NCBI RefSeq assembly: GCF_946478805.1 | Contig: NZ_CAMLDC010000002.1 | Span: 186,001 to 250,000 of the forward strand | Length of the DNA: 64,000 nt | Direction: 5' to 3' | DNA from: an uncultured Fluviicola sp. | GTDB lineage: Bacteria; Bacteroidota; Bacteroidia; Flavobacteriales; Crocinitomicaceae | Shown: piece after piece, positions 4,416-48,919 of the stretch | Position numbering within the stretch: the first letter of the stretch is position 1 | How the letters are laid out: the number at the start of each line of letters is the position of its first letter | Translations under genes and position numbers: made by a program | Notes under the pieces: model-generated | Told to the model about the DNA's origin: nothing | The model's input: only the letters and a program-made list of their open reading frames with translations | Databases searched by the model: none

Positions 4416-4982
4416 TTATTTTTTCACGTACTGCGTCAGGATATAAATGGATTGTCCGTCGATTTTCCCTTCGATCAAGGTCGGATCGTCGTGAACCAAA
4501 CGAATGTTCCGTACAGCAGTTCCACGCTTCGCTGTAATTGTTGAACCTTTCACATCCAGTTCCTTGATCAGAACAACAGTATCACCTGCTTTCAAAACAA
4601 CTCCATTCGAATCAATGTGCTTAATGGCATCTTCATCCTCCATTCCGGACTTCGCCCATGCAAGTTCCTTGTCATCCAAATAGATCATTTCAAGCAAATC
4701 GTTTGGCCACCCCTCTTGTTTCAAAGCATTTAACATGCGATAAGAAATTACTTTCACAGCTGAAACCTCACTCCACATGGCATCATTCAAACATCTCCAA
4801 TCATTTGGAACAATCTCTTTTGTACCTTCCAATTGGTCTTTTAGATTTTGATTGATCAAAATGAAATCATCGGCCGAATTCCCTTCGGATGGTTGTACCT
4901 GGTAAACTTGCAGATTATCTGTTGTACCGTTCAATTCACATACTTCACCACTTCGGGTGTTCAACTGTTTTCCAAAATTCAT
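4416..4982 (-). CDS. PhnA-domain protein
   Basis: This 188-residue protein carries the PhnA C-terminal domain (residues about 125-188). Its conserved block reads SNGVVLKAGDTVVLIKELD, then KGSTITAKRGT and a final IYILTQYVKK. The family was named after a gene beside phosphonate genes in Escherichia coli, but it has no role in phosphonate use that I can support here. The N-terminal region (LNTRSGEVCELNG) lacks the CxxC pairs of the zinc-ribbon found in many PhnA proteins. The gene converges on the GNAT gene with an 11-base gap. It is probably cytoplasmic. Confidence 0.8.
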   Translation of the reverse strand: MNFGKQLNTRSGEVCELNGTTDNLQVYQVQPSEGNSADDFILINQNLKDQLEGTKEIVPNDWRCLNDAMWSEVSAVKVISYRMLNALKQEGWPNDLLEMIYLDDKELAWAKSGMEDEDAIKHIDSNGVVLKAGDTVVLIKELDVKGSTITAKRGTAVRNIRLVHDDPTLIEGKIDGQSIYILTQYVKK

Positions 4983-5043
4983 GCTGCAAAGTTAATTTAA
5001 TCTCCCAAAGTAATAAATGACAAATGTCATACAGGCATATCAT

Positions 5044-5077
5044 AAAAAAGTCCCGATTCACTTTCGTGAACCGGGAC
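5044..5077 (-). terminator. Rho-independent terminator of the T9SS surface-protein gene
   Basis: GTCCCG-ATTCAC and GTGAAC-CGGGAC form a 12-bp stem with one mismatch and a 4-base loop. On the minus strand the stem is followed by six T residues. It lies 26 bases after the stop of the gene at 5103-7928. Confidence 0.85.
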
Positions 5078-12427: not shown

Positions 12428-12805
12428 CTATTTAAATAAAGGGGTGTACTTTTCCCTGTTTTCAATCATTATCCATGTCAGAATGGCAAATAAGACCAAT
12501 GCGATCGGCAATCCGGAAGGTGCATTGAAAATATGTGTCAATAAAATCCCAACCATGATAGGTAAAATCATGATCGCTCCAAGCGCTCTGTATTTAGGGA
12601 TGATCACTAAAACTCCTCCGATTATCTCAACTACCGCGATCAAAGGCATCAACCAGACAATCGCTCCGAAAGCTTCCACTACTTTCATCATGCTTTCGGG
12701 CATGTCTTTCGGCATTGGCATGTATTGGAAAATCTTATTGAGCCCGGAGTTAATGAACATCAATCCGAATAACAGGCTGAACACAAACAAAATTTTATTC
12801 TTCAT
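12428..12805 (-). CDS. DoxX family membrane protein
   Basis: A 125-residue integral membrane protein with four hydrophobic helices. The first contains FGLMFINSGLNKIF, the typical DoxX helix. Residues PLIAVVEIIGGVLVIIPKYRALGAIMI form the next pair. DoxX proteins are small quinone- or redox-linked membrane proteins of unclear function. The gene is 5 bases downstream of an SRPBCC gene and 20 bases upstream of another, so it is co-transcribed with them. The second ArsR cluster at 25982-26362 holds another DoxX protein in a comparable position. Confidence 0.85.
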   Translation of the reverse strand: MKNKILFVFSLLFGLMFINSGLNKIFQYMPMPKDMPESMMKVVEAFGAIVWLMPLIAVVEIIGGVLVIIPKYRALGAIMILPIMVGILLTHIFNAPSGLPIALVLFAILTWIMIENREKYTPLFK

Positions 12806-12810
12806 ATTAT

Positions 12811-13317
12811 TTACTTTTTAAGTGTTGGTAACAATTCGTCTAACTGTTCCATTCCAATTGACAATCCTTCTTTGAAGCCCATTTTGATTGTTTCTTCCAA
12901 ATGCGCCAAATCACGGTAAGTAATGTGCAAAGTCACTGCTGTCAATTCCTCCCCTTTATCCTCAAAGGAAACTTCCCATTTCGATTGTGGCATTTCTTCA
13001 TTCACCTTTCCGCTACTATCTGTAAACGCATCCAAACCTGCGAATAAACTTTCCGGACGGATCTTGGTGTAATTCACAATTGCCCAGTGTTCTTCATTAT
13101 TTGGACCAACCATGGCATATAACCATGTTCCACCTTCTTTGAAATCCATTTTCTTTGTTCGTGCGTTCCACGGTTTTGGTCCCCACCACTGATCCAGGAT
13201 TTCCGGTTTCGTATATGCATCCCAAACTAATGAACGTCCGGCTGCAAATTCTCTTTTCACTTCGATTGTTTTGTTTTCCTTATCCACGGAAAAATCAAAT
13301 GCTAAATTGTGTCTCAT
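12811..13317 (-). CDS. SRPBCC (AHSA1-like) domain protein
   Basis: A 168-residue AHSA1-type protein: strand KTIEVKREFAAGRSLVWDAYT, then PEILDQWWGPKPW, then MDFKEGGTWLYAM, and a C-terminal helix EGLSIGMEQLDELLPTL. It is closely similar in layout to the N-terminal half of the neighbouring protein at 13437-14405 (both have FDFSVxKExN and PEILDxWWxPKP), so the two arose by tandem duplication. It lies in the ArsR-led operon. The ligand is unknown. Confidence 0.87.
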   Translation of the reverse strand: MRHNLAFDFSVDKENKTIEVKREFAAGRSLVWDAYTKPEILDQWWGPKPWNARTKKMDFKEGGTWLYAMVGPNNEEHWAIVNYTKIRPESLFAGLDAFTDSSGKVNEEMPQSKWEVSFEDKGEELTAVTLHITYRDLAHLEETIKMGFKEGLSIGMEQLDELLPTLKK

Positions 13318-13436
13318 CTTCTATCGTTTTTATTTGTTTTCAAAACTTCGTTCTTAGATGAAAGTTTCCAGAGGGTAACCTTAAAAATACGCCATCTGTT
13401 TTCAGAACAAAAACTTTCAATCTAAATTATTCGTTA

Positions 13437-38384: not shown

Positions 38385-38762
38385 TCACTTCGTAAAGTAG
38401 TTTTTCACAAATGCCTCCTTCTGTTTATCTGTCATATTGTCCGTCGTTGCCACATCAATCCGGACATTCTTGAAATGAGCATCTTCGGATAAATAATTGT
38501 TCAGCTCTAGCTTTGCATCCGTGGGACCGAATAGCAACACATGACCGTAATTCAGAATCTCATCGGCAATTTCCTTATAGTAGGCCCGGTGCATCTGGTT
38601 TTCCTTATTATGCATGTGTTTTTCACCTTTACTCAACGCCTCTTCTTTATCGTTGAAAGAAAATTGCGATTGGATGGATTGTGACCTTCCTTCAAGGTCT
38701 AACGCAATCAGTTCGGCGGATGAATGATCCATCCAGATTCCTATTTTTTTTGTTGGTTCCAT
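38385..38762 (-). CDS. eRF1-like (baeRF/translational-machinery) protein
   Basis: A 125-residue protein related to the host-attachment/eRF1 domain-1 group. The pattern KIGIWMDHSSAELIAL at the start, HNKENQMHRAYYKEIADEILNYGHVLLFGPTDAKLELNNYL in the middle and NMTDKQKEAFVKNYF at the end fits proteins often encoded near universal stress genes. It is thought to act with ribosomes, but the role is unproven. An ATGA-N6-TCAT site lies about 150 bases upstream, so it may belong to the stress regulon of this island. Confidence 0.75.
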   Translation of the reverse strand: MEPTKKIGIWMDHSSAELIALDLEGRSQSIQSQFSFNDKEEALSKGEKHMHNKENQMHRAYYKEIADEILNYGHVLLFGPTDAKLELNNYLSEDAHFKNVRIDVATTDNMTDKQKEAFVKNYFTK

Positions 38763-38910
38763 TGTGATTCTTTTTGAAATAATGAATTTTCACTTCCTTT
38801 AAAGGTATCTAATCCAAAAGGATAAACCACGAATAATCAGGACTATAATTTACATGATTCACGTATTTTGGATTACCCGATAAAGGAACATCATTGTTCT
38901 TAAAAAAAGA

Positions 38911-38924
38911 ATGACTTAGCTCAT
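38911..38924. promoter_or_regulatory. Crp/Fnr-type site (ATGACTTAGCTCAT)
   Basis: An ATGA-N6-TCAT site that is 13/14 identical to the site before the DoxX-universal stress operon (42218-42231). It lies between the response regulator gene and the eRF1-like gene. A possible but poor -7 box (TTCCTTTA) is at the fixed distance for the minus-strand eRF1-like gene. Confidence 0.55.
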
Positions 38925-38975
38925 ACAAACAACTAATAATTGCCCGAATACAAACGATTTATATTTAAAGGAAAA

Positions 38976-40034
38976 TCAGTTTTTCAGGTTTACAAGTTTG
39001 TCGTATTCAAGGATGGTGATCATACTTCCTGCAATCTCAATGTATTTATCCTCTTTGAAATCGCTGAGCGTCCGAATGACTGTTTCTTTGGCCGTTCCAA
39101 CCAGATTTGCCATGTCTTCACGGGAAACATTCATACTGAAACGTTGGTCCGTCTCCTTCTTGTAGGTATCCGACAGTTTCACAAGAGCTTCTGCAACTCT
39201 TTTTCTTACAGAATCATAAGCCAAACGAATCAGTTGCTGTTCATTTTCAATGAGATTATCTGAAAGGATGCCAATAAATTTGCGGGCAACTTCCGAGTTT
39301 TTATAGATCAGCGAGAAAAAATCTTCTTTGGGAATCATATAGATTTCGGCATCCTCCAAAATCGCAGCTGAATGTGTATACTTCTCATCCTTCAATAAGG
39401 AAAGGAACCCGAAAAAATCGCCCGCTTTATGTAAACTACTTATCAGTTCTTTTCCCTGGTCATTTTTGTGGAAAATCTTCACTTTCCCCTTATTGATAAA
39501 ATAAACTCCTTTCGGATAGGCGCCTTCCCAAAAAACCACGTCTTTTTTTCGGTAATGCCTCACATCACGTGCTGTAGAAAGCTCCTTCAATGAACCGAAA
39601 TTCCGGGCTTCATTGATAAAATCCTGAACACCATCAATGTTTTTGGTGAACTTGTTCTTAAACAGATCTTGCTTTTTCAGCCGTGTTTCGATTGCATTAA
39701 GTAATTCCTGATCATCGAATGGTTTTGTCAGGTAATCATCCGCACCCATTGCCATTCCCTTTCTCACATCACTTCTCTCAGCCTTGGCAGTGAGAAAAAT
39801 AAACGGGATTCCGGAAGTTTCTTCATTTTTTGAAAGCAGGTGCAGAACGCCATGCCCATCGAGTACCGGCATCATGATATCACATATGATCAAATCCGGA
39901 TTTTCCTTGATTGCAAGTTTCACTCCTTCCTTACCATTTTCAGCAGTGATAACGTCATACTGCGCCAATTGTAGTATTTCAGCCGTGTTTTCACGAACAT
40001 CTATATTATCTTCAATAATCAATATCTTTTTCAT
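38976..40034 (-). CDS. Response regulator with REC, cNMP-binding and Crp-type HTH domains
   Basis: A 352-residue regulator that joins a phospho-receiver to a Crp/Fnr module. REC (1-120) has D52 (ICDIMMPVLDGHG) and K104 (YLTKPFDD). A cNMP-binding-like beta-roll (about 150-270) follows: DVVFWEGAYPKGVYFINKGKVKIFH and GDFFGFLSLL. The Crp-type HTH ends the protein: VSREDMANLVGTAKETVIRTLSDFKED. No N-terminal FNR-type cysteine cluster is present. It lies 11 bases downstream of the PAS kinase gene (40046-41251), so they form a two-component pair. It is the natural candidate to bind the ATGA-N6-TCAT sites in this island. Confidence 0.92.
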   Translation of the reverse strand: MKKILIIEDNIDVRENTAEILQLAQYDVITAENGKEGVKLAIKENPDLIICDIMMPVLDGHGVLHLLSKNEETSGIPFIFLTAKAERSDVRKGMAMGADDYLTKPFDDQELLNAIETRLKKQDLFKNKFTKNIDGVQDFINEARNFGSLKELSTARDVRHYRKKDVVFWEGAYPKGVYFINKGKVKIFHKNDQGKELISSLHKAGDFFGFLSLLKDEKYTHSAAILEDAEIYMIPKEDFFSLIYKNSEVARKFIGILSDNLIENEQQLIRLAYDSVRKRVAEALVKLSDTYKKETDQRFSMNVSREDMANLVGTAKETVIRTLSDFKEDKYIEIAGSMITILEYDKLVNLKN

Positions 40035-40045
40035 GGCTTCGTTAT

Positions 40046-41251
40046 TTAAGATTTTCTGATGGATATAAGAACTTCAGTTCCCTCATGCTCCACACTTTTG
40101 ATTTGAATCGTTCCATTCATTAACTCAACATACCTGGCTACAATGTTCAATCCCAAACCGGTTCCTTGTATGTGAGTTGCATTGCTTCCCCTGAAAAAAC
40201 GTTCAAAAAGCTGTTCCTGGTCTTCTTTGGAAATTCCAATTCCATGATCTTTAACTGCAATCAAAATTTCATCTGAAGTTGTTTTTACGGACAATTCAAC
40301 AATTCCGTCTGCCGGAGAGAATTTGATCGCATTGGAAAATAGGTTAAGGAGAATATTCTTTAATATTTTCGGGTCAAGCTGAACAATTTCATCCCCTGAA
40401 TAAACTTCATTAATGACCTGCTTCTCCAATAGCATCGTGCGCATTTCCGAGACGATTTCAGAAATGAATAAGCGGATATTGATCTCTTCCGGATTATTGG
40501 TGATTTTACCCTCTTCCAATTTCGAAACGGAAAGAAAGTCATTCAATATATCCGTCAGATTATTGATTGAGGATTTTACTTTGGCAACGTGTTTCTGATG
40601 ATTCACATCATCGTTCCGTTCATGGTATTTCGCAATCAGGGAGACAGAAGACATCATTGTTGTAAGCGGTGTCCGGAATTCATGTGATGCCATTGAAACG
40701 AACCGGGATTTCATCTCGTTCAATTCCTTTTCTTTAGCCAGGGAAATATCCAGGTTTTTTTTTGTCTTTTCCAGTTCGGCGATTGCTTCTTCAAGGACAA
40801 GTGTCCGATTCTTCACCTGCTTCTCCAGGTCAGCGAAATAGGTTTTCATTCTGAACTCTGCCTCTTTTCGAATTGTTACATCAATGATAAAGGCAATTAC
40901 AAAACTCCCATTTTCATTCTTGAAAGGGCTTAAACTGATTTCAACAGGAAATTCCGACCCGTCTTTTTTCAGTCCGAAAAGTTCCATCCCGGCTCCCATG
41001 GATCGGGCATGCGGGTGATGAGAATAATTTTCCCTGTTGATTTCATGTCTTTGAGTAAATCTTTGGGGAATCAGATTCTCTATTTTTTTTCCCTCCAGTT
41101 CTCCATGTTCGTAGCCGAACAATTGCTCGGCACTCGGATTAATCCTAATTATCTGTCCTTCTGTATTTGTAACCAAAATCCCTTCGGTTGCATACTGAAA
41201 TAGTGCATCATTTCCTTCTTTGCTTTCCATTTTTGTCAATTCCAAGCCCAT
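40046..41251 (-). CDS. PAS sensor histidine kinase (HisKA type)
   Basis: A 401-residue soluble kinase. The PAS domain (about 10-125) contains RHEINRENYSHHPHARSMGAG and the motif LKKDGSEFPVEISLSP. The histidine in RHE (H69 from this start) aligns with the haem-binding His of FixL, although the distal Arg position is Met here. HisKA (SMASHEFRTPL) and HATPase (LLNLFSNAIKFSP; VKDHGIGISKEDQEQLFERFFRG) follow. The start at 41251 is an ATG that fits the promoter; a GTG at 41266 would precede it. The signal could be oxygen, but this is only inferred from the PAS motif. Confidence 0.9.
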   Translation of the reverse strand: MGLELTKMESKEGNDALFQYATEGILVTNTEGQIIRINPSAEQLFGYEHGELEGKKIENLIPQRFTQRHEINRENYSHHPHARSMGAGMELFGLKKDGSEFPVEISLSPFKNENGSFVIAFIIDVTIRKEAEFRMKTYFADLEKQVKNRTLVLEEAIAELEKTKKNLDISLAKEKELNEMKSRFVSMASHEFRTPLTTMMSSVSLIAKYHERNDDVNHQKHVAKVKSSINNLTDILNDFLSVSKLEEGKITNNPEEINIRLFISEIVSEMRTMLLEKQVINEVYSGDEIVQLDPKILKNILLNLFSNAIKFSPADGIVELSVKTTSDEILIAVKDHGIGISKEDQEQLFERFFRGSNATHIQGTGLGLNIVARYVELMNGTIQIKSVEHEGTEVLISIRKS

Positions 41252-41279
41252 AGTAAATATATACACTATTTGATCAAGG

Positions 41280-41345
41280 CAAAAGTATTATTTGCACTAT
41301 TTGGAAAAGATGAGTCCCATCATCAGGAAAGATGATTTTAATCAT
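41280..41345 (-). promoter_or_regulatory. Promoter and two tandem Crp-type sites of the kinase-regulator operon
   Basis: The minus-strand -7 box TACTTTTG is at 41287-41280. Two sites of the form ATGA-N6-TCAT lie upstream: ATGAGTCCCATCAT (41310-41323) and ATGATTTTAATCAT (41332-41345). Their centres are 22 bases apart (two helical turns). The nearer centre is 29.5 bp from the first base of the -7 box, about -40 from the expected start, a typical activator position. Confidence 0.75.
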
Positions 41346-41416
41346 TTTTTTTAACGACAAGGAAGTGTCTCTTTTATGATCAAAAGACACTTTCTTTTTG
41401 AAACGTGGATTTTGCA

Positions 41417-42103
41417 CTAAATATCTGCTCTTCCGGAATCCGAATAACTTGGTAGTTCGACGTTGAGATTATTTTCTACCATGGTAACTCCGGGCGCGTT
41501 CCATGCTGCACTTTCCGCATCACGTCTTTCCGCGTAGGAACGTACAATACCGGTAAGTGTAACTTTACTGCCTATATTTTCGATGTGAATACTCTTAGCA
41601 TCGATTGTCGCACTCCTTTCAAAGGCTGCTGTAATTTTCTTCTTTACGTCATCCAGGTTCACTTTTGGTGTGATCTTGACCAGGTTACTGATTCCTTTGA
41701 TTCCGGTAATTGCCGCTACAGCGTCCCGCACTGCATGTTGTTCATATGCCCATTCAACCGTTCCTTCGGTTGTCACCCAACCATTTTCCACCTTTACCTT
41801 GATTTTATCGTCGGGAACCATCACATTCCATTTTAAAGCATCCAATGCCGCCTGAGCCAATTCCGAATCGGTTTTCTTGTGGTTGAAGCCAATATTGATT
41901 TCAATATCTTCTGCAACTCCTTTCACTCCTTCTACTTTAAAAGCTGCTTTTTCTGCGATTTTTTTCTCCAGGTAAGTGTCAACCAAACCCGAAAGCGTTA
42001 CGACCCCATTTTTCACCGCAACTCCAATCTCAGTTGAGTGAATAGAAGGTTGCCACTTCAGTTCCTCCATTACATGTCTCTGAATTTCCTCATCTGTTTT
42101 CAT
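41417..42103 (-). CDS. Triple BON-domain protein
   Basis: A 228-residue protein made of three BON domains (about 3-70, 78-146 and 150-217), each with the alternating pattern GVAVKNGVVTLSGLVDTYLEKKIAEKAA-like and the central VxGVKGVxxxI motif. BON proteins bind phospholipids and help membrane or stress integrity; this one has no signal peptide, so it would be cytoplasmic or membrane-associated. It is divergent from the DoxX-universal stress operon and has a weak version of the regulon's site in its promoter. Confidence 0.9.
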   Translation of the reverse strand: MKTDEEIQRHVMEELKWQPSIHSTEIGVAVKNGVVTLSGLVDTYLEKKIAEKAAFKVEGVKGVAEDIEINIGFNHKKTDSELAQAALDALKWNVMVPDDKIKVKVENGWVTTEGTVEWAYEQHAVRDAVAAITGIKGISNLVKITPKVNLDDVKKKITAAFERSATIDAKSIHIENIGSKVTLTGIVRSYAERRDAESAAWNAPGVTMVENNLNVELPSYSDSGRADI

Positions 42104-42130
42104 AACTCCATTGTTTTAAAGTTTATATTA

Positions 42131-42174
42131 CAAAGCTGATAACAAACCACTTATTTACCAATGACATAACTTAC
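42131..42174 (-). promoter_or_regulatory. Weak regulon site and -7 box of the BON gene
   Basis: The -7-like sequence CAGCTTTG (42138-42131, minus strand) differs from TAnnTTTG at one base. ATGACATAACTTAC (42161-42174) keeps the ATGA half-site and two of four bases of the other. The centre-to-box distance is 29.5 bp, the same as for the stronger sites at the kinase and DoxX promoters. Confidence 0.5.
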
Positions 42175-42217
42175 TCCCGCTCATGAGATTCGTCACTGAC
42201 ATTTTTTATTGCAAACG

Positions 42218-42261
42218 ATGACCTAGCTCATTTTATCCTGTAGGCTTCCTCCTTAGGTTTG
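42218..42261 (+). promoter_or_regulatory. Promoter and Crp-type site of the DoxX-universal stress operon
   Basis: ATGACCTAGCTCAT (42218-42231) is an ATGA-N6-TCAT site. The -7 box TAGGTTTG is at 42254-42261. The distance from site centre to the first base of the box is 29.5 bp, identical to the kinase promoter. The first gene starts at 42285. Confidence 0.78.
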
Positions 42262-42284
42262 CATTTGCATAAGTAATTATTCAT

Positions 42285-42710
42285 ATGGAAATACTGACAC
42301 AATATCATCAGTTGGCTGCAATCACACTTGCGCGGATTTTTCTTGGGTTCCTTTTCCTTTTTCAGGGGTACGATGCCGTATTCAATATCGGGATCAAAAA
42401 AGTAACCGATACCTATCATGAAAATTTCAGGTTGAAAGGTATTCCAAAAGCAATTACATCGCTTTCAGCTTGGTACACAACTTACACCGAATTAATCTGT
42501 GGTTTCTTGCTTGTTTTGGGGCTATTTGAATTTGTGTCTCTTTACCTGCTCGGAATAAATCTGATTATTGCTGCAATAGGCTTTGGAATGAACACTCCTT
42601 TATGGGATACACGAAATGTTTATCCCAGACTCCTGTTGATTCTCTTTCTTTTAATGACGTCAATCCATACTCATCACTGGTCTTTGGATCACCTCATATT
42701 CAAATCTTGA
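42285..42710 (+). CDS. DoxX-like membrane protein
   Basis: A 141-residue protein with four membrane helices (LARIFLGFLFLFQGYDAVFNI; YTELICGFLLVLGLFEFVSLYLLGINLIIAAIGFGM; LLLILFLLMTSIHTHHW). The ARIFLGFLFLFQGYD stretch is typical of DoxX-type proteins. It is the first gene of a plus-strand operon with a universal stress protein 5 bases downstream and, in turn, genes up to 46346. A redox or membrane-stress role fits the context but is not shown. Confidence 0.83.
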   Translation: MEILTQYHQLAAITLARIFLGFLFLFQGYDAVFNIGIKKVTDTYHENFRLKGIPKAITSLSAWYTTYTELICGFLLVLGLFEFVSLYLLGINLIIAAIGFGMNTPLWDTRNVYPRLLLILFLLMTSIHTHHWSLDHLIFKS

Positions 42711-42715
42711 ACGTT

Positions 42716-43579
42716 ATGAAACCCCATACAAAAGAACCTGAAATGATAACTCCATTCAACAGGATCCTGGTGCCGGTAGACTTTTCCGAAACTTCAAACA
42801 ATACCTTGGAGTATGCCCTGCAGTTGGCTAAAAAGACAAATGCCGAGCTACACCTGCTTCATGTATATGACTTACAACTTTTTATGTATGACCCGGTTCA
42901 ATTAAGTCCGGCCGAATATGACCTGGAAGAAGAAGTATTGCAGGAACTTGAAAAACTGAAAAGAACAATCCTTACGGAGAATCCGGGATTAGAGGTGGTT
43001 CATCATGCAATTTTGGGAGTGCCGGTTGATGAAATCAACGCTTATTCCAAAAAAGCAAAGATTGATTTGATCGTAATAGGAACCCAAGGAGCCGGCTATA
43101 TCCAGGAAAGAATATTAGGCAGTACCACTTCCCTCCTGATCCGCAGCGCCAAAACGCCGGTCATTGTGATTGACAAAGAAGTGAAATTCAAGGAACCGAA
43201 ACAAATTGTCCTGGCAGCCGACTTCCAGAAAACAGATACCAACAAGGTGCTTCGACCATTGAAGACCTTGGCCGAGCTTTACAGATCACATATTTGTATC
43301 CTGAATATTTATCCGCATATCCAATTAACTCCTTCTTTGGAAGAAATTCCAGAAGGATTCAGACTGGATTACTATTTAAAAGGTATTGAACACACTTTCT
43401 ACTCACTGGAAAATAATCAGGTCGTTTACAGCATAAACCAATTCATTACCGATTATGAGATCGATATGATTGCAATGATTGCCCGCAAACATTCCTTCTT
43501 CAGTCGGCTCTTCAAAGAGCCATTAACAAAAAAAATGTCATTCCACAGCCGTGTTCCGCTATTAGTTCTACACGACTAA
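42716..43579 (+). CDS. Tandem universal stress protein (UspA family)
   Basis: A 287-residue protein with two Usp domains. The first is clear: FNRILVPVDFSETSNNTLEYALQLAKKTNAELHLLHVYD, ending VIGTQGAGYIQERILGSTTSLLIRSAKTPVIVI, which has the G-x2-G-x9-GS nucleotide motif. The second (about 155-287) is more degenerate and lacks that motif. Usp proteins help survival under starvation, oxygen limitation and other stress. The start at 42716 removes an upstream extension that overlaps the DoxX gene. Confidence 0.9.
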   Translation: MKPHTKEPEMITPFNRILVPVDFSETSNNTLEYALQLAKKTNAELHLLHVYDLQLFMYDPVQLSPAEYDLEEEVLQELEKLKRTILTENPGLEVVHHAILGVPVDEINAYSKKAKIDLIVIGTQGAGYIQERILGSTTSLLIRSAKTPVIVIDKEVKFKEPKQIVLAADFQKTDTNKVLRPLKTLAELYRSHICILNIYPHIQLTPSLEEIPEGFRLDYYLKGIEHTFYSLENNQVVYSINQFITDYEIDMIAMIARKHSFFSRLFKEPLTKKMSFHSRVPLLVLHD

Positions 43580-43597
43580 AATTTGAGTTCTTGAATT

Positions 43598-44002
43598 ATG
43601 AAAATAACTATCAACGATCAGCAAACTATTTCCCAGGTACGTGATTCATTCAATAAATTATTCCCTTTTCTGAAACTGGAATTCTTTTCAAAAAGACACG
43701 CACCAGGGCAACCTTCACCGTTCCAGTTTTTGATCCAAAAAGACATCGCGCTTAAGGATTGTCGTACAATCCATAATTCCGGTGAAATAACGATCATACC
43801 GGATATGAAAGTCAATGAGTTGGAGCAACTCTTGTGGGATAAATATGGCTTAGGAGTGCAGGTTTTCCGTAAATCAGGAGGAATCTGGCTGGAAACCGTA
43901 TTGACAGATATCTGGACCCTGGCTGAACAAAATGCAGAAGGTGAATCATTAAACAAGGGAATTCCACCGGAAGAACCGGAATATTACCAGGATAGAAATT
44001 GA
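43598..44002 (+). CDS. Conserved hypothetical protein of the stress operon
   Basis: A 134-residue cytoplasmic protein that I do not recognise. It has a predicted alpha/beta pattern: helix SQVRDSFNKLFPFLKLEFF, strand EITIIPDMKVNELEQLLWDKYGLGVQVFRKSGGIWLE, and a tail rich in glutamate and proline. It is 18 bases after the universal stress gene, so it is part of this operon and presumably of the same stress response. Confidence 0.6.
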   Translation: MKITINDQQTISQVRDSFNKLFPFLKLEFFSKRHAPGQPSPFQFLIQKDIALKDCRTIHNSGEITIIPDMKVNELEQLLWDKYGLGVQVFRKSGGIWLETVLTDIWTLAEQNAEGESLNKGIPPEEPEYYQDRN

Positions 44003-44075
44003 AGCACAGTCAGGAAAGTCATATCGGATTAATCCGGTTTATACTCTCTTCGGCCTTCATCCTTATAAATAATTT

Positions 44076-44921
44076 ATGTATAATTCATTGACAGTTACAA
44101 AGGCATCAGGAGAACAGACCTTATTCTCTGAGGAGAAAATCAGGTCGTCTCTTCAGAGATCCGGTGCTGATCCCGATCAGATTGATTTCATACTTCAGGA
44201 AGTAAAGAAACAACTGTATGATGGAATGACGACCCGGAATATCTATAAAATCGCTTTCGGTCTTTTAAGATCCGAATCCCGCCATAAAGCAGCGCGTTAT
44301 CATTTGAAATATGCGATCATGGAATTGGGTCCTTCCGGTTTTCCATTTGAAAAGTATATCGCTGAATTGCTCAAATTTGAAGGTTACAAAACACAAATCG
44401 GGCAGATTCTTCAAGGAAAATGTGTGACCCATGAAATTGACATCATTGCTGAGAAGGACGCAAACCAAATTCTTATAGAATGTAAATACCACAATCAACG
44501 CGGAATATCCTGTAATATCAAAATACCGCTGTATATCCATGCCCGATTTAACGATATCGAAGCACATGCACTTAAAAAGTCAATTGATCCGTCAAAGAAA
44601 CGCAAAGGTTGGATTGTTACCAATACCAGATTTACAGCGGACGCAGTCCAATATGCCGGTTGTTCCGGAATTCCTCTTATAGGATGGGATCATCCTTTCG
44701 GAAAAGGGTTGAAAGATAAAATTGACCGTTCAAAACTTTACCCGATCACCTGTCTGACCTCACTTACAATTGCTGAAAAGCGGCAATTACTGGATCGTGA
44801 GATTGTGTTGTGCAATGAGTTACAAAACAATGGAAAACTCTTGTCTTCCCTTGGAATAAAGCAAGGACGAATGGCAACAGTTCTCAATGAAGTACATCAG
44901 CTTTGTGGTCATACCAAATAA
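44076..44921 (+). CDS. ATP-cone domain fused to PD-(D/E)XK nuclease-like domain
   Basis: A 281-residue two-domain protein. The N-terminal ATP-cone (1-85: VTKASGEQTLFSEEKIRSSLQRSGADP ... ARYHLKYAIMEL) senses ATP or dATP in NrdR and ribonucleotide reductases. The C-terminal domain looks like an Mrr-type endonuclease: E92 (FEKYIAELLK), then E120-I-D122 and E135-C-K137, which fit the E/D-xn-ExK catalytic set. The last 60 residues are helical. It sits in an operon with Usp and MBL proteins, so it may be a nucleotide-gated nuclease used under stress. This combination is known from database families, but its activity is not established to my knowledge. Confidence 0.8.
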   Translation: MYNSLTVTKASGEQTLFSEEKIRSSLQRSGADPDQIDFILQEVKKQLYDGMTTRNIYKIAFGLLRSESRHKAARYHLKYAIMELGPSGFPFEKYIAELLKFEGYKTQIGQILQGKCVTHEIDIIAEKDANQILIECKYHNQRGISCNIKIPLYIHARFNDIEAHALKKSIDPSKKRKGWIVTNTRFTADAVQYAGCSGIPLIGWDHPFGKGLKDKIDRSKLYPITCLTSLTIAEKRQLLDREIVLCNELQNNGKLLSSLGIKQGRMATVLNEVHQLCGHTK

Positions 44922-44933
44922 TACAGATTTCAA

Positions 44934-46346
44934 ATGAAAAACAATCTAAGTATTCAGTTTTTAGGCGCATCAGGTACGGTTACAGGCTCCAAATACCTGG
45001 TAGAGCTATCCGGTCAAAAATTATTGATTGACTGCGGATTATTCCAGGGTTTAAAAGAGTTGCGGAAATTAAACTGGGAAACTTTACCTTTCGATGTTTC
45101 CACTATCGATGCAGTCATTTTAACACATGGCCATTTGGATCATGTGGGATATCTGCCCTTATTGGTGAAACAGGGTTTCAAGGGAAAGATCCATGCAACA
45201 GAACCGACAATCGAGATAGCAAAGCTTATTTTGCTTGATAGTGCAAAAATCCAGGAAGAGGATGCCAAGCGCGCCAACCAGTTCGGATACAGCAAACACC
45301 ATCCGGCTAAACCTCTCTATACTACTGCAGAAGCCGAAGCTGTTTTTCCTATGTTCCAGGAACAAGCCATTGACGAATGGATCACACTTTCCGATGTATT
45401 TGCTTTCCGGATGCGCTATAATGGACACATACTCGGAGCCACTTTCATCGAACTGAGAGCAGCAGATAAATTGATCGTATTCTCGGGAGATATCGGAAGA
45501 AAAGAGGATCCTTTGTTATTCTCCCCTCAAAAACCCGAACAAGCCGATATCCTCCTTATCGAATCGACCTACGGAGGACGAATACATCCTCCTAATCCCG
45601 ACATTCGTCTAGCAGAAATCATTAACAAGGCTGCCGCTAAAAACGGTACAATCATCATACCCGCTTTCGCAGTAGAACGCGCTCAGCTTCTCATGTTCTA
45701 TTTATGGAAATTGAAAAGTGAAAACCTCATTCCGGATTTGCCTATTTATCTGGACAGCCCTATGGGACAGGACGTACTGAAAATCTTCAGCAGACATGAT
45801 TCCTGGCATAAATTATCCCCTTCGGAATCCAAAGAAATCACAAAGGAAATCAAGGTTGTAAGCAAACAGAACGAGACAATAAAACTCGCGGAAAGCCACA
45901 ATCCGAAAATCATCATTGCAGCTTCCGGAATGGCCACCGGTGGACGGGTACTGACATATTTTGAATATTACCTGGGACAAAAAACTGCTACTATCCTGAT
46001 GGTTGGTTTCCAGGGAGAAGGGACACGCGGAAGGGCATTACTTGACGGTGCGGAGGAAATTAAAATGCGTGGAAAATACTGGACGGTGAATGCGAACTGT
46101 GTTAGTGTCGAAGGGCTTTCTGCACATGCTGACCAAAGTGAACTTATTGATTGGGTAAACCAGCTTGCAAAAGAACCAGAGAAACTCTTTATCGTTCACG
46201 GTGAACCGGAAGGATCCAGTGCTTTAAAAACGAAAATGAAGGAAGTTTACGGTTATGAAAGCATCATCCCGGAACGAAACGCAACCTATACAATTCCTGT
46301 CAATCTTGACAAAACCGGGCGGGATAATTTCAAACCAATTGAATGA
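44934..46346 (+). CDS. MBL-fold beta-CASP metallo-hydrolase (putative ribonuclease)
   Basis: A 470-residue protein of the RNA-specificity (beta-CASP) branch of metallo-beta-lactamase enzymes. Zinc ligands include H65, H67, D69 and H70 in LTHGHLDHVGYLP. The beta-CASP domain is shown by DILLIESTYGGR and the C-terminal motifs IIIAASGMATGGRVLTYFEYY, GLSAHADQSELIDW and VHGEPEGSSALK. Relatives include archaeal CPSF-like and bacterial RNases. It follows the ATP-cone nuclease by 12 bases, so the pair may act on nucleic acids together. Confidence 0.92.
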   Translation: MKNNLSIQFLGASGTVTGSKYLVELSGQKLLIDCGLFQGLKELRKLNWETLPFDVSTIDAVILTHGHLDHVGYLPLLVKQGFKGKIHATEPTIEIAKLILLDSAKIQEEDAKRANQFGYSKHHPAKPLYTTAEAEAVFPMFQEQAIDEWITLSDVFAFRMRYNGHILGATFIELRAADKLIVFSGDIGRKEDPLLFSPQKPEQADILLIESTYGGRIHPPNPDIRLAEIINKAAAKNGTIIIPAFAVERAQLLMFYLWKLKSENLIPDLPIYLDSPMGQDVLKIFSRHDSWHKLSPSESKEITKEIKVVSKQNETIKLAESHNPKIIIAASGMATGGRVLTYFEYYLGQKTATILMVGFQGEGTRGRALLDGAEEIKMRGKYWTVNANCVSVEGLSAHADQSELIDWVNQLAKEPEKLFIVHGEPEGSSALKTKMKEVYGYESIIPERNATYTIPVNLDKTGRDNFKPIE

Positions 46347-46408: not shown

Positions 46409-48919
46409 TTATTTTGTTGTGTCCTTTTTTCTTCTCTTGATCAGCTTCACAAGCTCAAACCAAACAACCGAAATAAATCCGGTAACCAAACATATGATCA
46501 GCTGACTTCCATTCAACCTTTCGAATTCAAAGAAGGCGGTCAAAGGTTTTACAAAGAGCATTAGTCCCATCAGCAACAGAGTTATTCCAATGATGTATAC
46601 AACTAACTTGTTCTTATACTTTAAAGTTGTCCAAATTGAATAATAGAATGAGCGATTGATCAGGGTCAGGAAAATATTTGCCACCACCAAGTCTGTGAAT
46701 ACCATGGTTCTCGTTAATGCTTCATTAAAACCACTGTGAACAGCATATTGATAGATTAAAAGGATTCCCAAAGCAATAACCGACCCCTGAATGATGCTGA
46801 CAGTAAGTTCTGTCCAATTAAAAAATGTGGTAGAAATCGGTTTCGGTTTTTGGAACATCAAATTTTCCTCCATCGGTTCGTTTTCATAGATAATGGAACA
46901 AGTGGGACCCATGATGATTTCAAGAAAAATGACATGAACGGGTGAAAAAATATTGGGATAAACCCATCCCAAAGCCAGCGGAACAAATACCGTTAAAAGA
47001 ATGGGAATATGAATCGAAATGATATATTGAATGGCTTTCTTCAGATTGGTATAAATCTTCCTGCCCATTGCAATGGCATCAATCATTTTGGAAAGATCGT
47101 CTTCCAATAAAATGAGAGATGCGGCATCTTTCGCGATCTCGGTTCCTTTTTTTCCCATCGCGATACCAATGTGAGCCGCTTTGAGGGCGGGACCATCGTT
47201 TACGCCATCGCCGGTCATCGCTACAATTTGATGCTTTTCCTTCAAGGCGTCAATGATCTTTAATTTTGCATCGGGAAACATGCGGGTGAAAATAGCCGTT
47301 TCCATTACACAATCTTTCAACTCTTCGTCACTAAGCTTCATCAACTGGTCACCATTCATACTTTTTTCAAATCCCGAAAAATGAATTTGCCTGGCAATTG
47401 CAGAAGTGGTTTCCGCGTTGTCTCCTGTAATGATTTTCACACGGATCCCTGCATCATAAAAGGATTTAAGTACCTGGTCGATATTCTTTTTAGGCGGATC
47501 ATAAAATGCAACAAGCCCTTTAAAGGTAAATTTCAACGCTTCCTGGTTTTCAGGGAAATCCGTTCCGGAAAAATCAGAAATGCCTACTCCCAAAACCCGG
47601 AATCCATCTTTTGATATGGTCTTTACCACTTCAGAGATCTCTTTTTGTTCGGCATCGGTAAGGGATGAAACACGCATCATGGTTTCTACGGCTCCTTTGG
47701 CTGCCAGAATTCGGTTTCCTTTTCCATCTTCAAAAACGTGAGTCATCATGGGTGGTTTTCCACCCAAGGGATATTCATGAACCAGTTTAAAATCGGGGCG
47801 TCTGTCATCTGTAGTAAAATCTTTGTAAGCTTCATGTAGAGCTTTTTCCATCGGGTCAAACGGAATCGGTTCGCTCGCCCACATTCCTATTTCAATGAGC
47901 TCCTTTTCTTCAGGAGTTGAAACTGCTTTGAGTTCAGAATACTTTTTTGTCGACCAAACAAACAACTTGGACAAGCTCATTTTATTCTCCGTAATGGTTC
48001 CCGTTTTGTCGGTGCAAATAACAGTTGCACTTCCTAAGGTTTCAACTGTTTTCATTTGTTTCACCACGATTCCCATTTTCATCAACCTCCAGGCACCAAG
48101 TGCCATAAATGTGGTAAATGCAACCGGAATCTCTTCGGGTAGGATACTCATTGCCAAGGTCAATGATTGTAAAAGACTTGTCAGCAGACTATGCGATTGA
48201 AGGTAATTGATGATCCAGACAACTAGAAAAACAATTCCTCCCACAATGGCCATCTTCTTCACGAAATTCGCGATCTGAAGTTCCAGTGGTGTTTTTTCTT
48301 CCTCGATACTCTCCAGGCTTTTCCCGATTTTGCCCAACCTGGTTTCATTACCAATCGCTGTGACCGTTACAATCGCCAATCCCGAGGCAACGGTTGTACC
48401 ACTGTAAATGTGGTTGTCATCAGAACCTTTATCTTTAAATATGGCAAGAGACTCTCCTGTGAGAATGGATTCATTTACGGAGAAATCATTTGACTGGACA
48501 ATCTTTCCGTCTGCTATTATCGAACCACCTTCTTCAACAATCAGGCTGTCTCCTACAACCACCTCTTCACTTTTTATTTTTTCTGCTTTTCCATTTCGAA
48601 TAACCGTGCATGTAGGCTGCGAAAAATCCTTGAGTTTATCCAACGCATTTTTACTCCTGGAATATTGATAAATGGAAATAAATGCCTGAAAAAGAATCGC
48701 CGCGGAAAGAAAAATTCCGTCTCCTGTTTTTCCACTGATAAAGTAAATAGAAGCTGCAACAAGGAGCAAAATAATCATCGGTTCTTTCGCTATTCGAAGA
48801 ACCATGGCAAACAAACTATTTCCTTTTTGAGAAGTCAATTGATTGGATCCGAATTGCCCCCTTGCCTGAACGACCTGTTCGGTGGTTAACCCTGTAATAT
48901 TGAATGATCCGTTTTGCAT
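46409..48919 (-). CDS. P-type cation-transporting ATPase
   Basis: An 836-residue P2-type ATPase. The family set is complete: actuator TGES (154-157), PEEIP (261-265) in the ion-channel helix, phosphorylation aspartate D304 in ICTDKTGTITENK, and the hinge AMTGDGVNDGPALKAA. Ten membrane helices are expected. The layout matches Ca2+/Mn2+ pumps (SERCA/PMR1-like), but PEEIPVAFTTF is not the classic PEGLP-type calcium motif, so the ion is uncertain. It lies beside metal efflux genes, and the TTGAC-N4-GTCAA palindrome near its start may be an operator. Confidence 0.9.
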   Translation of the reverse strand: MQNGSFNITGLTTEQVVQARGQFGSNQLTSQKGNSLFAMVLRIAKEPMIILLLVAASIYFISGKTGDGIFLSAAILFQAFISIYQYSRSKNALDKLKDFSQPTCTVIRNGKAEKIKSEEVVVGDSLIVEEGGSIIADGKIVQSNDFSVNESILTGESLAIFKDKGSDDNHIYSGTTVASGLAIVTVTAIGNETRLGKIGKSLESIEEEKTPLELQIANFVKKMAIVGGIVFLVVWIINYLQSHSLLTSLLQSLTLAMSILPEEIPVAFTTFMALGAWRLMKMGIVVKQMKTVETLGSATVICTDKTGTITENKMSLSKLFVWSTKKYSELKAVSTPEEKELIEIGMWASEPIPFDPMEKALHEAYKDFTTDDRRPDFKLVHEYPLGGKPPMMTHVFEDGKGNRILAAKGAVETMMRVSSLTDAEQKEISEVVKTISKDGFRVLGVGISDFSGTDFPENQEALKFTFKGLVAFYDPPKKNIDQVLKSFYDAGIRVKIITGDNAETTSAIARQIHFSGFEKSMNGDQLMKLSDEELKDCVMETAIFTRMFPDAKLKIIDALKEKHQIVAMTGDGVNDGPALKAAHIGIAMGKKGTEIAKDAASLILLEDDLSKMIDAIAMGRKIYTNLKKAIQYIISIHIPILLTVFVPLALGWVYPNIFSPVHVIFLEIIMGPTCSIIYENEPMEENLMFQKPKPISTTFFNWTELTVSIIQGSVIALGILLIYQYAVHSGFNEALTRTMVFTDLVVANIFLTLINRSFYYSIWTTLKYKNKLVVYIIGITLLLMGLMLFVKPLTAFFEFERLNGSQLIICLVTGFISVVWFELVKLIKRRKKDTTK

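Follow-up and report, generated by a model that had tools for sequence, protein, structure and literature searches.

A probable low-oxygen two-component switch in Fluviicola: a FixL-like kinase, a receiver-Crp/FNR regulator and a promoter-locked operator

The DNA analyzed here is a stretch of 64,000 nucleotides (the window) from an uncultured Fluviicola sp., a bacterium of freshwater Bacteroidota (contig NZ_CAMLDC010000002.1), in which an island at 38385-46346 carries a PAS sensor histidine kinase, a response regulator with a Crp-type DNA-binding end, and a group of neighboring genes. There are good grounds to believe that the island is a low-oxygen two-component switch, in which a FixL-like sensor drives a protein that joins a receiver to an activator of the Crp/FNR type and so unites FixJ and FixK in a single molecule. 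The operator lies at a fixed distance from the -7 box, is conserved in relatives, and occurs most often in genomes that encode the regulator.

Species genomes were scanned with the regulator, and 80 of the 579 confirmed relatives (56 to 80% identical) were used as the locus sample. The intergenic DNA of these loci was subjected to an unsupervised scan for 4-mer palindromes with gaps of 0 to 12, and the frequency of each word at the remaining gaps served as its expectation. The best three palindromes were TGAC-N4-GTCA (61 vs 1.7 expected), TGAT-N4-ATCA (82 vs 4.7), and ATGA-N6-TCAT (74 vs 5.1), which are one motif, TGAY-N4-RTCA. For motifs at any place in the 80 loci, the distance to the following TAnnTTTG had one peak of 35 cases at 22 nt and another of 59 cases at 44 nt, with at most 8 at any other distance, indicating two sites 22 bp apart. 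In its typical form, the operator is a tandem TGAY-N4-RTCA pair with centers 29.5 and 51.5 bp ahead of TAnnTTTG. An earlier note on this DNA had given the site as ATGA-N6-TCAT; exact sites of this form are real, but the tandem pair is the typical operator. The TGA-N6-TCA core is common to the operator and to the TTGA-N6-TCAA type of site read by FixK and the Crp-FNR superfamily, but at the left end the operator mostly has A or C in place of the outer T.

Published work on Flavobacterium psychrophilum (PMC9723704) places the -7 box at -12 to -5, with the consensus TAnnTTTG. Together with the 29.5 bp to the box, this would put the proximal center at about -41.5, on a start-site map that belongs to F. 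psychrophilum and not to this organism. At class II promoters, CRP and FNR are centered at -41.5.

A promoter model of 70 columns was built from 78 promoters of the loci, with the window excluded. In the 81 sequences, it gave 183 matches with a score of at least 14, of which 154 were mostly intergenic, and ten column-permuted models gave 0-4. After filtering, at least one model promoter was present in 68 of the 80 loci and at least two in 48. The loci had been selected by the regulator and the model had been trained on them, largely on tandem promoters; therefore, genome-wide tests matter more. In the genomes of 20 loci, a strict single pattern was matched in all 20, with 114 matches vs 1 for the reversed control, and in 198 genomes of the class it gave 659 matches vs 17. 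For the strict tandem pattern, the same 198 genomes gave 132 matches and the control none. A distal-only pattern (287 matches vs 51) was noisier and was not relied on.

Of the 198 genomes, 67 encoded a close regulator and 30 a weaker match to it; a further 14 had a plain Crp match only, and 87 had no match at E 1e-40. Tandem sites occurred in 41/67, 10/30, 8/14, and 11/87 of these classes, respectively; the odds ratio for a close regulator against none was 10.9 (Fisher p 2e-10, relatedness not corrected). Furthermore, the 67 genomes of the first class contained 92 tandem promoters, of which 23 lay within 12 kb of a regulator gene, compared with about 0.6 expected under uniform placement, and nine of these 23 were within 100 bp of it. 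The co-occurrence of sites and regulator, which had been set as a test beforehand, was thus positive, though not exclusive, and the sites are conserved in related species across Bacteroidota, locked to promoters.

In the island, four promoters show this geometry. At the kinase-regulator operon, the proximal operator ATGATGGGACTCAT (41310-41323, -) has its center 29.5 bp ahead of the -7 box TACTTTTG (41280-41287, -; consensus TAnnTTTG), and the distal operator ATGATTAAAATCAT (41332-41345, -) lies 22 bp upstream. The unit of DoxX and the universal stress protein (Usp) has a proximal operator ATGACCTAGCTCAT (42218-42231, +), likewise centered 29.5 bp ahead of its box TAGGTTTG (42254-42261, +), and a degenerate distal operator CTGACATTTTTTAT (42196-42209, +) 22 bp upstream. 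For the BON gene, a weak proximal operator GTAAGTTATGTCAT (42161-42174, -) is found 29.5 bp ahead of a weak box CAGCTTTG (42131-42138, -); the distal operator GTGACGAATCTCAT (42183-42196, -), 22 bp upstream and absent from the earlier note, is better than the proximal one. The full site ATGAGCTAAGTCAT (38911-38924, -) before the eRF1-like gene has the same 29.5 bp spacing to a weak -7-like box TTCCTTTA (38881-38888, -). Hence the spacing at the kinase and DoxX promoters, the kinase pair 22 bp apart, the weak BON version, and the site before the eRF1-like gene, all noticed previously, were confirmed on the sequence. The kinase and DoxX promoters carry exact ATGA-N6-TCAT sites, and the BON and eRF1-like promoters carry degraded versions at the 29.5 bp distance.

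The promoter-model scores were 38.8 for the kinase, 30.2 for DoxX, 12.9 for BON, and 12.6 for the eRF1-like gene, and 300 column-permuted models gave on average 0.18 matches per window at a cut-off of 10 and 0.077 at 12. With the promoter geometry counted, the window sites are beyond chance. Nine exact palindrome matches were found in the window, five of them intergenic, and four of these five in the island. One opposite-strand echo of the kinase palindromes also scored 12.8. The closest regulator locus among those listed was in a Flavobacteriales metagenome-assembled genome (L001). In pairwise alignments with this nearest relative, sites and boxes are kept and the flanks have diverged: the kinase operators are conserved, and the DoxX alignment shows a footprint with the TGACAT half of the distal operator conserved. 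Operators precede five of the island's genes in L001 (BON, kinase, eRF1-like, DoxX, and ATP-cone), and cco, which lies nearby there, has one as well. The BON ortholog scored 23.9 there, better than in the window, and the eRF1-like ortholog 30.6.

The response regulator (38976-40034, -) is a protein of 352 aa with a receiver (REC), a cyclic-nucleotide fold, and a Crp helix-turn-helix (Pfam PF00072, PF00027, PF13545, and PF00325); its output is HTH_Crp_2, not a LuxR-type helix-turn-helix. The phospho-acceptor residues E8, D9, D52, and K104 of the receiver were invariant in 81/81 sequences, and T82 was present in 80, with Ser in the other one. In the recognition helix, E317 and R321, which we take to be the Glu and Arg of TGA recognition, were invariant in all 81 aligned. 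The sole cysteine of the window regulator, Cys 51, is in the receiver next to the phospho-Asp, and there is no Fe-S cysteine cluster; across the 81 regulators, one cysteine was found in 50, two in 22, three in 5, and four in 4. The position presumably equivalent to the cAMP-phosphate Arg of CRP holds E in 40, D in 22, S in 11, and G in 4 of the 81, and H in the window. By its residues, the regulator is a Crp/FNR-type protein that carries a receiver in place of the cysteine Fe-S sensor. Some genomes hold several receiver-Crp paralogs (G057 and G065, four matches each), and in another relative (L002) an operator precedes a second receiver-type gene at 12743-13396.

The kinase (40046-41266, -; 406 aa; Pfam PAS, HisKA, and HATPase_c) is the first gene of the operon and is separated from the regulator by 11 bp. 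A kinase match was found in 79/80 loci, and in 77 of these 79 it was on the regulator's strand and ended at most 150 bp before it. The phospho-His of the H-box was kept in 74/74 aligned kinases. Phosphotransfer from kinase to regulator is suggested by genetic linkage. Against the PDB, the PAS profile matched only FixL, DosP/Ec DOS, and 10jx at E<1e-8; 10jx is a heme PAS, so all these matches are heme PAS sequences. Moreover, the position aligned with the heme His of FixL, presumably its axial heme ligand, was H in 56/57 FixL-type kinases. The PAS domain therefore probably binds heme as FixL does. The partner kinases of two relatives (L027 and L044) start with what by eye resembles a receiver domain, not a FixL-type PAS; judging from these, the circuit input may be exchangeable.

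The genes downstream of 162 promoters were grouped, with 23 remaining as single genes. The kinase group held 27 promoters in 25 sequences. In 22/81 sequences, the operator-bearing kinase ended at most 150 bp before the regulator, so that the operator heads the regulator's own operon. The 134-aa family (18 loci), Usp (16 loci), ccoNO (16), and DoxX (15 sequences, window included) were the next groups, followed by hemA (10), a CcoI-like ATPase (8), hemN (6), and smaller ones. With one representative each, ccoN/ccoO, hemA, hemN, hemH, and the Fe-S repair protein RIC were above the NCBIfam cut-offs. The CcoI-like ATPase is a P-type ATPase that fell below the heavy-metal subtype cut-offs, and it is so labeled because it keeps company with ccoNO. 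Pfam identified FixS (ccoS/fixS) and a bacterial globin among the small targets; RIC and globin were each found at one locus. SOGA and TerB matches of two other small targets were below cut-off and were ignored.

The operator thus stands in relatives ahead of ccoNO, the CcoI-like ATPase, ccoS/fixS, hemN, hemA, hemH, globin, and RIC, which gives the regulon a low-oxygen look. The earlier note had proposed a self-contained stress regulon. A self-contained or general stress regulon was too broad a reading once the cco, hem, and CcoI-like targets appeared, since the same operator precedes cco, hem, globin, and Fe-S repair genes in relatives; from its targets, the regulon is probably a low-oxygen, FNR/FixK-like one. 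At the kinase, Usp, DoxX, the 134-aa family, ccoNO, and the CcoI-like ATPase, most sites were tandem. In F. psychrophilum, cbb3 and heme genes are induced when oxygen is limiting (PMC9723704).

In the proposed circuit, falling oxygen would lead the PAS kinase, probably heme-bound, to phosphorylate the receiver of its operon partner. Phosphorylation would favor binding of the regulator at the two TGAY-N4-RTCA sites, which are 22 bp or two helical turns apart, and a Crp dimer centered at about -41.5 would be able to contact RNA polymerase in the class II manner. The regulator would activate its own operon and, in relatives, the cbb3 oxidase, the CcoI-like copper ATPase, heme synthesis, Usp, DoxX, and proteins of translation and RNA fate.

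Among known systems, FixL-FixJ-FixK of rhizobia and Caulobacter shares with this one a FixL-like PAS kinase, a receiver, a Crp/FNR-type activator without Fe-S cysteines, a regulon with cbb3 oxidase and heme synthesis, and an operator on its own operon. FixI, FixS, and hemN are FixK targets, and the output of FixJ is a LuxR-type helix-turn-helix. In contrast, receiver and Crp/FNR parts are in one protein in the window instead of separate FixJ and FixK, the operators are tandem TGAY-N4-RTCA sites with a Bacteroidota -7 box, and the distal Arg of FixL is not kept. Both cbb3 oxidase and heme synthesis are published FixK targets (PMC4999443). FNR/ANR and plain FNR-like proteins of Bacteroidota have the TGA-N6-TCA core, low-oxygen targets including Usp, and probably the class II spacing in common with the window system, whereas the window regulator has no Cys cluster and has a receiver and a partner kinase. 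E. coli CRP belongs to the same domain families and acts at the class II position, as the window regulator probably does, but its half-site is TGTGA, and that of the window is ATGA/CTGA. The DosR regulon of Mycobacterium and the lxa locus of Burkholderia cenocepacia are alike only by analogy, as Usp-rich low-oxygen gene sets; such sets also have BON and release-factor-like members, and their regulator families and operators differ from those of the window. Six Usp in lxa and ten among the 48 DosR genes are reported (PMC6127331).

Several findings weigh against the proposed switch or limit it. At a score of at least 14, no promoter was found in 12 of the 80 loci, some of them on short contigs. 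In the window, the palindrome alone (at most one mismatch) gave 60 matches vs 53.2 expected, with 18 of 100 shuffles as high. By itself it is not enriched, so that position and conservation have to carry the claim. This would suit chance palindromes at AT-rich promoters, an explanation which spacing, conservation, and controls contradict, which is refuted at the family level, and which we regard as next to impossible. A tblastn search of the window gave no ccoNO, hemN, or hemA; all that is known of the low-oxygen targets comes from relatives. Besides, hemN (0/6) and hemA (1/10) were hardly ever tandem. A clean split into single sites for FNR and tandem sites for the fusion was rejected; the difference is a tendency, and an indicative one because the model was trained largely on tandem promoters. 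Another sensor was present in 17/74 aligned kinases, and the circuit input may therefore differ. Finally, the distal position that we take to be R220 of BjFixL, the regulatory Arg, is M in the window and M in 25, R in 9, L in 8, I in 7, F in 5, K in 2, and T in 1 of the 57. The replaced Arg would agree with a kinase that senses nitric oxide (NO), redox, or another ligand instead of oxygen, in which case the regulon would respond to nitrosative or general stress. Heme PAS domains are able to take up NO and CO as ligands, FixL structures with NO and CO exist, and RIC and globin are among the targets. However, ccoNO, the CcoI-like ATPase, hemA, and hemN dominate the respiratory targets, and the rise of cbb3 and heme genes on oxygen limitation in F. 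psychrophilum also speaks for oxygen, making such an input rather unlikely.

Who reads the operators is a further question. The density of single sites per Mb was 1.40 where a close regulator was present (67 genomes), 0.91 where the regulator was a weaker one (30), 0.89 with plain Crp only (14), and 0.61 without a match (87), the last still well above control; the site is therefore common throughout, and its association with the regulator is graded. The genomes of three relatives (L117, L119, and L124) also encode an FNR-like Crp of the plain kind, with CxxC at the N-terminus and the helix ETLIR, which is adjacent to hemN in two of them; in a fourth piece (L123), the Crp found lacks CxxC. In genomes with no fusion detected, 10 of 19 tandem-bearing pieces contained a plain FNR gene, in most cases accompanied by CcoI-like and/or ccoNO genes, and more than half of the plain-Crp-only genomes had tandem sites. 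Tandem sites thus do not mark the fusion alone, and a reading to that effect was rejected. Similar recognition helices, these FNR-bearing pieces, and the single sites at hemN would all fit operators that belong to a plain FNR-like protein encoded elsewhere, with the fusion merely nearby, modulating, or reading a few. Such ownership is quite unlikely, as tandem sites are commoner in genomes with the fusion, and cluster beside its gene, and as the operator heads its own operon in 22/81 sequences. There is an even chance that the fusion and the plain FNR share their operators, in the manner of FixK and FnrN in Alphaproteobacteria, the fusion adding kinase input to an older FNR network. Recognition residues are similar in fusion and plain FNR, both genes are linked to tandem sites, and the sites recognized by FixK and by FnrN are very similar (PMC4999443). 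The mostly single sites of hemN and hemA, against the mostly tandem ones of the kinase, Usp, DoxX, and the 134-aa family, hint at some division of labor. Sharing is compatible with the low-oxygen switch and differs from it in exclusivity only; by analogy, a shared operator code with two inputs would be the likely picture. The regulator had been named the natural activator as the only Crp-type protein in the island, which it is; with the plain FNR of similar helix in three relatives, it is a likely activator of these sites, not an exclusive one.

On a broader scale, it seems an evenly balanced conjecture that much of Bacteroidota controls its micro-oxic response by a FixLJ-FixK circuit in compressed form. 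In this view, an ancestral FNR would have swapped its Fe-S sensor for a receiver slaved to a heme-PAS kinase, kept its tandem operators, and spread over a dormancy-type set (Usp, DoxX, BON, Dom34-like, beta-CASP, and the 134-aa family), and many genomes would have Fe-S and heme oxygen inputs on one operator code. This offers a simple path by which evolution could turn a one-component oxygen sensor into a two-component system with its DNA code kept. In the open-licence literature, searched in part, little is in print on low-oxygen sensing by Bacteroidota and no report of a receiver-Crp regulator of this kind was found. The words Crp and Fnr are absent from the main text, as far as it was covered, of the F. 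psychrophilum start-site map and 32-condition transcriptome (PMC9723704). The present analysis names a candidate regulator, sensor, operator, promoter geometry, and target list for the low-oxygen response of Bacteroidota, all directly testable, and predicts the condition under which several protein families without a name would be expressed.

Ten window proteins were scanned against Pfam, which backed the identity of eight, and gave no match for the eRF1-like and 134-aa proteins. The eRF1/Dom34-like target (38385-38762, -; 125 aa) is named from its homologs: among the 120 listed, a number are labeled by source as stalled ribosome rescue protein Dom34 and some as translational machinery protein, and the Dom34 labels support the name. 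The BON target (41417-42103, -) has PF04972 in three stretches. On the other strand, the DoxX-family membrane protein (42285-42710, +; PF07681) and Usp (42728-43579, +; PF00582) are targets, and the Usp gene is probably cotranscribed with DoxX. The unnamed 134-aa target (43598-44002, +) recurs in regulator loci, with a tblastn homolog in 37 of the 80 loci and 244 homologs at E 0.001 or better. Its AlphaFold model is confident (mean pLDDT 87) and matched no PDB fold at E 0.001 or better; di-ubiquitin-like matches suggesting two ubiquitin-like lobes were weak (best E 0.13) and were not used. The ATP-cone and Mrr-type nuclease-like target (44076-44921, +; PF03477 and PF04471) has an operator-bearing promoter of its own in L001 and in another relative (L014). 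The RNase-like beta-CASP metallo-hydrolase (44934-46346, +; PF10996 and PF07521), for which the promoter-model scan of the window gave no operator of its own, is the probable last gene of its transcription unit. For two island proteins, the closest named homologs among the matches listed were from Fluviicola.

Adjoining the island is a cation P-type ATPase (46409-48919, -), a gene type also present in dormancy gene sets elsewhere; no operator was found in front of it in the promoter-model scan of the window. Outside the island, a full site ATGACATTTGTCAT (5017-5030, -) lies 29.5 bp ahead of a perfect TAACTTTG box and has a model score of 18.7. The box is 12 bp before a PhnA/YjdM-domain gene (4416-4982, -; gene and promoter region 4416-5053). 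This gene may belong to the regulon as well, in which case its leader may be very short or its start may lie further downstream.

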